Below are positions 53,622-57,218 of a stretch of DNA of 64,000 nt, in pieces. Under the pieces are notes generated by a model. That model was given only the letters and a program-made list of their open reading frames with translations. It ran no database searches and had not been told where the DNA came from. The DNA is from Anaerolineaceae bacterium. Lineage in GTDB: Bacteria > Chloroflexota > Anaerolineae > Aggregatilineales > Phototrophicaceae. The translations under genes and the position numbers were made by a program. Where the stretch lies: assembly GCA_016124855.1 (NCBI GenBank), contig WGMX01000042.1, forward strand, positions 1-64,000, in the 5' to 3' direction. Position 1 is the first letter of the stretch; every line of letters begins with the position of its first letter.

Positions 53622-54953
53622 TTAACGCAGCATCGAGATCACTTTATCAGCAGCGGCGCTGGGGTTTACCGTTACTTCAGAACCATCACTCAGGCGCTTG
53701 AGCTTCACCACGCCGGCTGATATTTCTTCTGGGCCTTGGATGGCAACCATCGGTATACCTTTTTTGTTGGCGTACTCAAACTGTTTACCCAGTGCTCGAT
53801 CTTGCATGTAAAGTTCCGTACGCACGCCACCAGCGCGTAGGTCAGCCGCTAACTTGGCCGCGGCAGGGCGTGACTCTTCATTAAAGACGGTAACTAAGGT
53901 CTCTACAACTGTTCCCACAATATTGGGCGGATAGAGATTTAGAATGTCCATAAGATCAATGATACGTTCGATTCCTAAAGACGTACCCACATTAGGCAGA
54001 CTTTCCTTGCGGAACATACCGATTAAGTCATCATACCGTCCGCCTCCGGTTACACTGCCAAGATTAGGTTCAGTGATAATCGTCTCGAAAATTGGCCCTG
54101 TGTAATAACCCAGCCCACGCACCATCGTGAAATCAAATTCATAATTTTGGGCGGGAACACTTGTCATTTCCAAGTGTGCGGCTAATTCACGGAGTTCGCG
54201 CAAACCTTCACGCGCGGTTGGAATATTGCCCATCATTTCTTCGACAATATCTAGGTTAGCCAAACCCTCCTGGCGGGTTGTTATGAGTTGAATCATCCGC
54301 TTCACCGCATCAGGGGCGATACCGCGTTCGAGCAGTTCTTTCTCGACACCTTCTGCGCCAATCTTGTCGAACTTATCCACGCTGCGGTACAAGTCTGGAA
54401 GTTGTTCGTCAGTTACACCTGAATACTGTCCCATTCCCGTAAGCAGTTTGCGATTATTGATTTTGACGACGAACTGTGTGAAGCCTAAGCGTCGCAAGGC
54501 AGTCGTGATTAAGCTAATGATTTCCGCATCCGCGACCATGCCACTAATACCGACAATATCCGCGTCGCACTGGAAGAACTCCCGATAACGCCCGCGCTGT
54601 GGACGTTCGGCACGAAAAACAGGTGAGAGTTGATAGCGTTTGAACGGTAGCTTAATTTGGTTTTCATATTGGGCGACCACACGCGCTAACGGGACGGTCA
54701 GGTCATAACGCATTGCAACTTCTTCTTTACCGCCGGGATGTTGCGAACTGTAGATGAGCTTTTCAGCATCCTCACCGTACTTGCCGTACAGCGTTTCTTT
54801 CAATTCAAGGATTGGTGTTTGCAGGGGTTCAAAACCGTACAGGTGAAAAACCTCGCGCACAATGCCAAATACATACTCACGTTTGAGCATATCTGCGGGC
54901 AGAAAATCACGCATCCCTTTGGGCAAACGGGGAACAATTTTAACGGCGGCCAT
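53622..54953 (-). CDS. hisS: Histidyl-tRNA synthetase
   Basis: The 443-residue class II synthetase has motif 1 near the start (PRLPKGMRDFLPADMLKREY), then motif 2 YQLSPVFRAERPQRGRYREF. The histidine-specific VRGLGYYTGPIFETI and motif 3 with GVGTSLGIERI-like NVGTSLGIERIID are present, and a C-terminal anticodon-binding domain ends the protein. It charges tRNA-His. The ATG at 54953 is preceded by AAGGA; an in-frame TTG 14 codons upstream lies inside a terminator hairpin. The upstream leader shows it is regulated by histidine through attenuation. Confidence 0.95.
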   Translation of the reverse strand: MAAVKIVPRLPKGMRDFLPADMLKREYVFGIVREVFHLYGFEPLQTPILELKETLYGKYGEDAEKLIYSSQHPGGKEEVAMRYDLTVPLARVVAQYENQIKLPFKRYQLSPVFRAERPQRGRYREFFQCDADIVGISGMVADAEIISLITTALRRLGFTQFVVKINNRKLLTGMGQYSGVTDEQLPDLYRSVDKFDKIGAEGVEKELLERGIAPDAVKRMIQLITTRQEGLANLDIVEEMMGNIPTAREGLRELRELAAHLEMTSVPAQNYEFDFTMVRGLGYYTGPIFETIITEPNLGSVTGGGRYDDLIGMFRKESLPNVGTSLGIERIIDLMDILNLYPPNIVGTVVETLVTVFNEESRPAAAKLAADLRAGGVRTELYMQDRALGKQFEYANKKGIPMVAIQGPEEISAGVVKLKRLSDGSEVTVNPSAAADKVISMLR

Positions 54954-54978
54954 TATTTTATCCTTCAGCCATAGAAAT

Positions 54979-55006
54979 AAAAAAGCGCAGTCCAACGCCT
55001 GCGCTT
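54979..55006 (-). terminator. Attenuator terminator in the hisS leader
   Basis: AAGCGCAG (54983-54990) and CTGCGCTT (54999-55006) form an 8-bp stem. The minus strand then has a run of T residues. The hairpin is only about 25 bp upstream of the hisS start, so it must be regulated rather than constitutive. One arm also takes part in an alternative pairing with 55017-55028. Confidence 0.85.
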
Positions 55007-55028
55007 AGAGGTGACTCGCAACGGTTGG
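54992..55028 (-). promoter_or_regulatory. Antiterminator of the hisS leader
   Basis: On the minus strand CCAACCGTTGCG (55017-55028) can pair with CGCAGGCGTTGG (54992-55003). CCAAC pairs with GTTGG, two mismatches follow, and then TTGCG pairs with CGCAG (5'-side T opposite G). This captures the terminator's upstream arm. The first segment begins directly after the leader-peptide stop codon, so a ribosome at the stop would block it. Confidence 0.75.
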
Positions 55029-55064
55029 TTAACAGTATTTCGTTAAATCGTGATGATGCAGCAT
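55029..55064 (-). CDS. hisS leader peptide MLHHHDLTKYC
   Basis: An 11-codon frame, ATG CTG CAT CAT CAC then five to six more codons and TAA, encodes three consecutive histidines near its start. AAGGA lies six bases before the ATG, so it can be translated. The stop codon touches the antiterminator segment. This is the classical layout of ribosome-mediated attenuation. With abundant charged tRNA-His the ribosome reaches the stop, the antiterminator is blocked and transcription ends. With scarce tRNA the ribosome stalls at the His codons and hisS is made. Confidence 0.85.
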   Translation of the reverse strand: MLHHHDLTKYC

Positions 55065-55093
55065 GGCAATTCCTTAGTGTACTTGCTGCCTAT

Positions 55094-55122
55094 AGAGTAG
55101 CGGAAAATTGTAACCCACGCAA
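55094..55122 (-). promoter_or_regulatory. Candidate promoter of the hisS leader
   Basis: On the minus strand TTGCGT (55117-55122) and TACTCT (55094-55099) are separated by 17 bp, about 30 bp before the leader ATG. The -35 is imperfect and the -10 is weak. Confidence 0.4.
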
Positions 55123-55267: not shown

Positions 55268-56062
55268 ATGGCGAATTTAACAGAAGTCCAAATGGCACTT
55301 AAACAGGGCGATAAAGCAAAAGCCAACCAGCTTTTGAAATCAATCCTACAGCAAAATCCTTCAGCCGACGCATGGGTGATGGCGGCGCGAATGACAAGCA
55401 ATCCTGAAACGGCCAAGCTCCATTTGCAGCGCGCACTTGCGTTCGACTCCAAACATGTTAAGGCTCGCGACATGCTGCGCGACTTGGGCGGTACACAGAA
55501 GTCAGCTTCCGCAGCTTTAACAGGAGGACTCCTGACTACCTTTCGAAGCGAGTTAGAAAAATTTGGCGCCAACAAACCCGTCCTTCGTGATTTAAGCCCT
55601 AGCTTGCGAATGGTTACTGCCCTTAGTTTATACACGCTCATACTTGCACTAATATTGGTGGTTGTAGCCTCTTTGCTGTCTCCAACAGCGCCACTTGAAT
55701 TACCGGCGTTTACCCCTGTTACCGTTTATCAAGGCGATACTTTGATTAGCCAATGGAATACCGAAGGTTTAAACATAACCAATCTGGTTAATGTGGTTCA
55801 GGATCCTAACGTGCTATCTAAGGAACAAATCAACTTCACCGTGACTGACGACAATGGCTCTCATAAAGTTCAGATCTATCTCTATGACGACGTTGCGGGG
55901 ATTGTCAATGATGGGGTGCGAATGACGGCCCTTACAACCGATGGCACAAACAAAATGGATATTGTACAAACTGCCGTCATCATTTATCCGGCAGATATGA
56001 ATGAATTGACCGTCTCGTTATTGGAAAGCGCCCTCAAACCGGCGCCGACCGCCCCCGTATAA
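55268..56062 (+). CDS. TPR-like membrane protein next to a Flp-type pilin gene
   Basis: The 264-residue protein has an N-terminal TPR-like hairpin (MANLTEVQMALKQGDKAKAN, then LLKSILQQNPSADAWVMAAR). A membrane helix near residue 118-140 (ALSLYTLILALILVVVASLL) and an external domain of about 110 residues follow. A Thr/Pro-rich end follows a final helix. The pilin-like gene begins 31 bp downstream, so a role in pilus assembly or surface display is plausible. The family is not recognised. Confidence 0.6.
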   Translation: MANLTEVQMALKQGDKAKANQLLKSILQQNPSADAWVMAARMTSNPETAKLHLQRALAFDSKHVKARDMLRDLGGTQKSASAALTGGLLTTFRSELEKFGANKPVLRDLSPSLRMVTALSLYTLILALILVVVASLLSPTAPLELPAFTPVTVYQGDTLISQWNTEGLNITNLVNVVQDPNVLSKEQINFTVTDDNGSHKVQIYLYDDVAGIVNDGVRMTALTTDGTNKMDIVQTAVIIYPADMNELTVSLLESALKPAPTAPV

Positions 56063-56609: not shown

Positions 56610-57218
56610 TTATACTCCGGCGGTAGCAATTTCTGATGCAGCTTTCGCTTGCCGCGCGACCTCACGGAACTGAGCATAATGCCCTAATTCATGTTTGAGC
56701 CCATACAGAAAACAAGTTGTAGCATTAAATTGTCCATTTCGCTCGATAAAACGTGGGGAAAGCTCGCGTTTGGTTTCCAGATTGGGCTTATCCGGCCATG
56801 CATCCAAATATCCTAAGCGGATACGGCGGCTTTCTTCCAAGCGCTGAATACATTGCGCAGTCGTCGTTACCGTTTTCCAGTCAGTTTCGTAGCGCAAACG
56901 GGGTTCGGCTGGATAGGGTACGCCCCGCGCCAAAAAGCTGCTGTAGGTGGCCCATTCCTCGCTACTCGCGGTAACGTGAACCACAAGGTGTGCAACACTC
57001 CAACCAATCTTTTCTTCACCGGGTTTGGCGTGGGGATCATCCGCATCAGGATCATAAGGCAGGAAGCTAACTTGGGTATCGTCCAAACCTTGAACTATTT
57101 TGAGCAGTGTATCAATTGATTCATTGGTCGCGTTACGTAAATCCTCGACAGTAAAATGCTCTGAAAATTGCAGCAAGGTTATTTCATGGTTTTCAACTTG
57201 GCTAAAATCCAACGACAC
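56610..57218 (-). CDS. DinB-family protein
   Basis: The 202-residue protein has LRNATNESIDTLLKIVQGLD in its first helix, IGWSVAHLVVHVTASSEEWA with two His in helix two, and LYGLKHELGHYAQFREVARQ with HxxxH in helix four. These match metal-binding positions in DinB-like four-helix proteins. They may act as thiol-dependent enzymes or be regulators; the substrate is unknown. Monocistronic, with the terminator shared with the pilin gene. Confidence 0.78.
   Translation of the reverse strand: MSLDFSQVENHEITLLQFSEHFTVEDLRNATNESIDTLLKIVQGLDDTQVSFLPYDPDADDPHAKPGEEKIGWSVAHLVVHVTASSEEWATYSSFLARGVPYPAEPRLRYETDWKTVTTTAQCIQRLEESRRIRLGYLDAWPDKPNLETKRELSPRFIERNGQFNATTCFLYGLKHELGHYAQFREVARQAKAASEIATAGV

Follow-up and report, generated by a model that had tools for sequence, protein, structure and literature searches.

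Leader-peptide attenuation is described, in the sections of the reports drawn on here, in Proteobacteria, in Actinobacteria and, as a prediction, in Firmicutes (PMC2965389, PMC1262725, PMC9413887). Attenuators of trpS and leuS have been reported in Streptomyces and that of pheST in gamma-proteobacteria is cited alongside them (PMC1262725), His leader peptides have been predicted before the hisS* and hisZ genes of bacilli (Naville and Gautheret 2010, PMC2965389), and His leaders are found on the his operons of the Bacillus cereus group, the Eubacteriales and the Erysipelotrichales (PMC9413887). A survey of Rfam attenuators raises the possibility that amino-acid attenuators stem from gamma-proteobacteria (PMC3766115), and a further study counts the Chloroflexi among the groups with too few genomes to judge (PMC4833913); T-boxes have been reported in Dehalococcoides (PMC2494555). 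Judged by titles and abstract openings, the matches listed contained no report of leader-peptide attenuation in Chloroflexota, the subscription literature being mostly beyond reach. A 2004 survey is said to give attenuator candidates in Thermotogales and Bacteroidetes. Rfam includes a his leader family, and the T-box responds to the same physiological signal, tRNA charging, and acts on the same target class as the candidate attenuator considered here.

The hisS gene and its leader region

The window, that is the whole stretch of 64,000 nucleotides that was analysed, carries a gene whose product matches Pfam tRNA-synt_His (E=4e-44) and scores 388 bits against TIGR00442, the cut-off of which is 286.75. 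It is a true histidyl-tRNA synthetase and the sole full-length HisRS match of the genome assembly; the second HisRS match, on contig C56, is taken as HisZ-like because it adjoins hisG. On the minus strand, from a divergent ORF that begins at 55268 towards hisS, a promoter-like motif is followed by a leader ORF, an antiterminator strand, a terminator with its T-run and hisS itself (Table 1), an arrangement that very probably represents a ribosome-mediated transcription attenuator controlling hisS. The hisS ATG at 54953 is separated by 75 nt from the leader stop codon and by 29 nt from the end of the terminator. A TTG within the attenuator terminator (54995, minus strand) would be the start codon of the longest hisS ORF, which is likely a trap for automatic gene calling. 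The divergent ORF (55268-56062, plus strand) adjoins the hisS leader and has a weak, sub-threshold TPR match. A DinB-family gene (56610-57218, minus strand) lies upstream of hisS on the same strand, and in some relatives a DinB-like gene, named by eye, stands immediately before the leader or hisS.

Table 1. Features of the hisS region, with coordinates in the window
Feature	Position	Strand	Basis
hisS, histidyl-tRNA synthetase, 443 aa	53622..54953	-	profile matches
hisS Shine-Dalgarno AAGGA	54961..54965	-	read from sequence
Predicted intrinsic terminator hairpin, 8 bp, -12.9 kcal/mol, then T-rich tail	54983..55006	-	terminator scan, covariation, folding
Predicted antiterminator 3' strand CGCAGGCGTTGG, equal to terminator 5' arm and loop	54992..55003	-	covariation, folding
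Predicted antiterminator 5' strand CCAACCGTTGCG, adjacent to leader stop codon	55017..55028	-	MFE, covariation
Predicted leader ORF MLHHHDLTKYC, three consecutive His codons CAT CAT CAC	55029..55064	-	sequence; His-specific enrichment in relatives
Leader ORF Shine-Dalgarno AAGGA, 6 nt before ATG	55071..55075	-	read from sequence
Candidate -10 element TACTCT, 17 nt after -35	55094..55099	-	by eye, register of relatives
Candidate -35 element TTGCGT	55117..55122	-	by eye, in register with relatives

The initial annotation had described a leader with three His codons, an antiterminator that starts at the leader stop codon and a terminator with a T-run that shares an arm with it, and each was recovered in its place. 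The leader (ATG CTG CAT CAT CAC GAT TTA ACG AAA TAC TGT TAA, 55064-55029 on the minus strand) has its Shine-Dalgarno AAGGA. The antiterminator 5' strand CCAACcgTTGCG (55028-55017) begins directly after the stop codon and can pair with CGCAGgcGTTGG (55003-54992). For a piece of window RNA that has the stop codon at one end and takes in the partner strand as far as GTTGG at the other, this pairing is the minimum free energy structure (-10.4 kcal/mol). The terminator, AAGCGCAG-GCGTTGGA-CTGCGCTT plus TTTTATTT (55006-54983, minus strand), is the sole terminator-like site in the scanned kilobase.

The -35 register of the window matches TTGCAT in one relative (G015) and TTGCAA-N17-TAnnnT in others, and many relatives have TATACT or TACACT as the counterpart of the window -10. 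The conserved-register promoter scores weakly in the window genome, where the script preferred TCAACA-N16-TACAAT (55134-55107), a site also returned by the promoter scan. Neither the promoter nor the terminator scan of the window gave scores above those of shuffles, and the window sequence alone folds no better than shuffles do (z 0.14, 110 of 200 shuffles as good). By folding and consensus scans it is thus unremarkable, as would be expected if a spurious ORF happened to lie ahead of an ordinary terminator, a reading that is hardly to be credited in the face of the His specificity scan, which argues strongly against it, and of the covariation, the locus controls, the covariance model R1 and the pairing scan. 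The evidential weight of the predicted attenuator is accordingly in the comparison with relatives and not in single-sequence folding.

Recurrence and covariation among relatives

Comparison with relatives shows a predicted leader that is specific for His, a predicted terminator, a helix that competes with it and the covariation of these elements. A fixed rule was applied to all 20 amino acids, asking for an upstream ORF 6-45 aa long in which a given residue takes up three or more of five codons and which ends within 75 nt before a terminator, and it was run on 109 of the 110 fetched hisS upstream regions of relatives, that of G007 being too short. His matched in 32 of the 109 regions and the next residues, Arg and Ser, in 7 each, and His gave no match in 327 dinucleotide shuffles or on the 109 reverse strands. 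In a control set of hisS loci, of which 78 of 80 were used (L116 and L163 left out) and 77 tested (L113 too short), none of the 70 loci not labelled Chloroflexota matched, these including L178, an unnamed bacterium; L118 alone was positive among the set's seven Chloroflexota-labelled loci. A phylum-level sample, 70 of the 150 genomes with a HisS match, gave no match in its 70 hisS regions, 66 of them from other Chloroflexota classes, and no His match was found in 79 tyrS, pheS and trpS upstream regions of relatives.

The 32 rule-positive regions fall into seven family-level groups (f1 16, f2 2, f3 1, f4 3, f6 2, f44 4 and f48 4), and 77 of the 109 fail the strict rule. Of the 17 genomes of the window genus, 15 have the element by an R1 match with E below 1e-3. 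In G005, one of the other two, the start of the hisS match is missing and the match opens at the very first base of its contig; the second, G011, seems to be without a leader. The model matches the window at 54979-55037 with E=2.3e-9, the window row being part of its training set, and it also finds the elements of G007 (E=2e-4) and G014 (E=6e-6), both outside the model alignment. The fetched f7 and f8 genomes, which are of the same order, fail the rule, one of them (G043, f8) having an upstream ORF with HVHLH and no terminator. Several f1 genera are without the element, in eight f1 genomes it was still not seen when 0.8-2 kb upstream was taken in, and no leader was seen in G051, where an arsC-like gene precedes hisS. 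An arsC-like gene, named by eye, leads to hisS in G038 (L422) and G056 (L256), and there a His leader and terminator stand ahead of that gene, so that one or two genes may lie between the attenuator and hisS; the search for such operon-head leaders covered 14 longer upstream regions and yielded one (G038). In the class sample a search at E 1e-60 gave no HisS match for 189 of 296 genomes, and the matching ones were fetched in part. Given these gaps and the lack of matches in the other groups sampled, the best reading is that the predicted attenuator is present but patchy in at least seven families of Anaerolineae and, in the sample, confined to that class. The refuting condition set by the initial annotation, leader His codons and pairings missing from relatives, did not hold: at the levels of genus, family, order and class the His runs are found again, if not in every relative, together with a terminator and an antiterminator that show compensatory changes.

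For the finer comparisons 41 leaders were picked by eye from the hisS upstream regions, some with just two adjacent His codons. Dropping G021, which has no terminator, left 40 for the pairing scan, and dropping G017 as too short left 39 for the counts of start signals and codons. The covariation alignment A2 holds 25 of the 41; it excludes G021, G060, G055, G047, G041 and the sequences from the class level, whose arms lie elsewhere relative to the stop codon or are unalignable. In these 25 leaders 85.1% of the cells of the antiterminator helix are paired, 23 cells are changed on both sides and the covariation score is 0.418, each value being reached in none of 500 shuffles; the other two of the five measures are ordinary (192 of 500 shuffles as high for pairs changed on both sides, 382 of 500 for pair types). 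Compensatory examples are ACCAAC/GTTGGT, ACTGAC/GTCAGT and ACCCGC/GCGGGT, and in slid registers pairing is at most 43%. The terminator is paired in 94.8% of cells with 19 double-changed cells (0 of 500 shuffles) and is followed by invariant TTT columns. RNAalifold returns the terminator alone from the alignment, as expected because the two helices exclude each other.

When the search begins at the stop codon, each of the 25 leaders has an antiterminator strand whose start is -2 to +10 nt from that codon, and the strand after the stop pairs better than shuffles (mean z -1.70). A wider scan of the 40 leaders gave a mean z of -1.73 for the antiterminator pairing, with 30 leaders below -1 and 10 above. 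Measured from the cluster of His codons, the strand has a median start 29 nt past the first codon and 22 nt past the last; the scan began 9 nt past the last, and shorter spacings were invisible to it.

A promoter-like motif containing TTG, with 16-18 nt to a TA-rich box and in relatives often a sigma-70-like TTGCAA-N17-TATACT, lies upstream of 34 of the 39 leaders as against 18% of shuffles, so the main hisS transcript probably includes the leader, the motif being weak in the window genome. An SD-like motif precedes 20 of the 39 leaders as against 21% of shuffles. His codons vary synonymously (91 CAT, 58 CAC), and the peptides, apart from the His run, vary both in sequence and in length (10-38 aa). 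A functional His-rich microprotein, for instance a metal-binding one, with a terminator that merely ends the ORF transcript, would account for an ORF that recurs, is rich in His and has start signals in many relatives; its probability is nevertheless negligible, as the peptides vary outside the His run, the antiterminator covaries and the strong R1 matches precede hisS.

Another possibility is that leader and hairpin act mainly on translation, through access to the hisS ribosome binding site or re-initiation, and that the hairpin is not a working terminator. The leader is near hisS, 75 nt from stop to start, and leader ORFs are described as able to aid re-initiation in the cited section of PMC4833913. 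We regard this as very improbable since a T-run follows the hairpin, the hisS Shine-Dalgarno lies outside it, 72-173 nt separate the end of the terminator stem from hisS in G008, G013, G014 and G138, and terminator and hisS have one or two genes, named by eye, between them in G038 and G056.

Proposed mechanism and layouts

The transcription start, leader translation, stalling and direction of response that we infer for the transcription attenuator are as follows. RNA polymerase would start upstream of the leader ORF with a ribosome trailing it. When charged tRNA-His is plentiful the ribosome would soon be at the leader stop codon, its footprint would cover the antiterminator strand, and the terminator would form and end transcription before hisS. 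When charged tRNA-His is scarce the ribosome would stall on the His codons, about 22-30 nt upstream of the antiterminator strand, which would be free to pair with the emerging 5' arm and loop of the terminator, and hisS would be transcribed; the extra synthetase would in turn restore the charging of tRNA-His. The argument that a ribosome at the stop codon masks the strand draws on the general size of the ribosome footprint. As far as sequence comparison reaches, the initial annotation's central proposal, that hisS would sense charged tRNA-His by stalling on a leader peptide, is supported.

Equilibrium folds computed for the finished RNA with the His codons occupied by a ribosome give the terminator in the window and in G003, G009 and G015, and the antiterminator fold in G004, G006, G008, G013 and G025. 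Since the finished window RNA favours the terminator, the antiterminator would have to win during transcription, as it does in attenuators. Pairing of the 1:2 protector or pause type, as in the classical his and trp attenuators of E. coli, has a mean z of -0.61 (n=30), lies below -2 in G004, G244 and G280 and at -2.0 in G035, and has a z of 1.2 in the window; no consistent protector helix is seen in the f1 layout, and in the absence of a strong 1:2 hairpin loss of leader translation is predicted to give read-through there.

A second layout seems to exist in f44 and f48, judging from the best-scoring arm, which in seven of the eight leaders starts inside the ORF, 13-30 nt ahead of the last base of the stop codon, the exception being G152. 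In seven of these eight leaders 10-17 nt separate the end of the -10 box from the start codon, and seven are without an SD-like motif, a hint that initiation of the sensing ORF is nearly leaderless in these two groups. The spacing is just 10-11 nt, with the SD-like motif absent, in G303, G280, G271 and G244, for example.

Related regulation and known systems

No Rfam family matched the window region at the gathering threshold and a relaxed search returned three unrelated matches with E above 1; both the Rfam his leader, with no match at gathering, and the T-box (RF00230), with none at gathering or in the relaxed search, were rejected at hisS. T-boxes do seem to be present in these genomes (pheS of G007, G010 and G011; trpS of G044), and hisS might be controlled by a T-box or by another leader that binds tRNA or protein, with the His ORF incidental. 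The lack of a T-box match near the leader, relaxed search included, and a His signal that is amino-acid specific make this very improbable. As the leader-peptide attenuator matches no Rfam family it could become one.

In the window genus the upstream regions of pheS in G007 (L341), G010 (L326) and G011 (L332) match RF00230 with E from 4e-17 to 4e-14, below the gathering score, which none of 20 pheS loci exceeded; T-boxes before pheS are likely in these three genomes. In G044, trpS (L373) has a T-box above the gathering score (117 bits). In the same genome, which belongs to a related family, tyrS (L252 / L294) is preceded by the leader MLRNSNLYYYSKAIRVSMARVSGR with three Tyr codons (LYYYS) and a terminator, likely a Tyr attenuator. 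A cognate leader and terminator was found before 1 of 29 tyrS (G044), 0 of 22 pheS and 0 of 28 trpS regions, the scan having used 22 of 29 pheS and 28 of 30 trpS loci with partial matches left out, and leader attenuation as a general rule for synthetases was rejected on these counts; the rule is strict for Trp, for which a relaxed look gave no convincing further case. Leaders with aromatic codons and terminators were seen before DAHP synthase in G025 (L255, YCSYYF; gene named by eye) and G050 (L464, WAWFGFYYFF). The latter is the one leader among 30 DAHP synthase upstream regions; the former was found separately, G025 being outside the 41-genome DAHP synthase set. A His leader on the his biosynthetic operon was rejected, as no His-bearing upstream ORF with terminator was found within up to 700 nt upstream of hisZ-hisG in 13 f1 genomes, counted from hisZ, which is possibly not the first gene of the operon; in G019 an upstream ORF with HHH and no terminator lies upstream of hisZ.

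These observations suggest that within one genus pheS is served by a T-box and hisS by a leader peptide, and why one sensor replaces another thereby becomes a testable question. In a wider reading, which we hold as tentative and at somewhat less than even odds, the Anaerolineae would have evolved their own leader-peptide attenuation of synthetases, separately from that of proteobacteria and of bacilli and alongside T-boxes; low charging of His-tRNA would raise the synthetase and not histidine biosynthesis, the sensing ORF of f44 and f48 may be read nearly leaderless with ribosomes loading without a Shine-Dalgarno, and the tyrS and DAHP synthase leaders would be further patchy members.

The hisS leader compares with described leader-peptide attenuators in having a short ORF ahead of the gene, predicted to be translated, that is equipped with start signals and with a series of codons for the pathway amino acid; a predicted intrinsic terminator between leader and gene that covaries in 25 leaders; and an antiterminator that excludes the terminator, as judged by covariation and placement, with masking by the ribosome suggested by the spacing and the general footprint size. 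It is a compact two-hairpin switch, and a recurrent, covarying His attenuator on a canonical hisS in a Chloroflexota class would widen the known range of leader-peptide attenuation. Of the novelty first claimed for hisS in Chloroflexota the lineage stands and the idea does not, His leaders on HisRS-family genes of bacilli having been predicted (PMC2965389). A new lineage for His attenuation of hisS is well supported by the sequence comparisons, and the kind was already known from pheST, from trpS and leuS and, as a prediction, from the bacillar HisRS paralogues (PMC2965389, in the section cited).

Like the window leader, those of bacillar hisS* and hisZ are predicted His-leader attenuators before HisRS-family genes, but as described they serve paralogues of HisRS in Firmicutes that also have a hisS with a T-box (PMC2965389), whereas the window gene is the sole full-length HisRS match of a Chloroflexota assembly. 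The pheST, trpS and leuS attenuators share with it the control of an aminoacyl-tRNA synthetase gene by a leader peptide and differ, by their descriptions, in amino acid and phylum (PMC1262725). The his operon leaders of Firmicutes likewise have three to five His codons in a row with terminator and antiterminator, and act on biosynthesis operons instead of a synthetase gene (PMC9413887). Unlike the window leader-peptide switch, the T-box reads tRNA directly. The enterobacterial his leader resembles the window leader in its short His-run peptide, its choice between terminator and antiterminator and its response to charged tRNA-His, which for the window leader is predicted (PMC9413887); it differs in having biosynthesis and not a synthetase gene downstream, and the window leader is set apart by an f1 layout with no consistent protector or pause hairpin and by an antiterminator strand placed at the leader stop codon.
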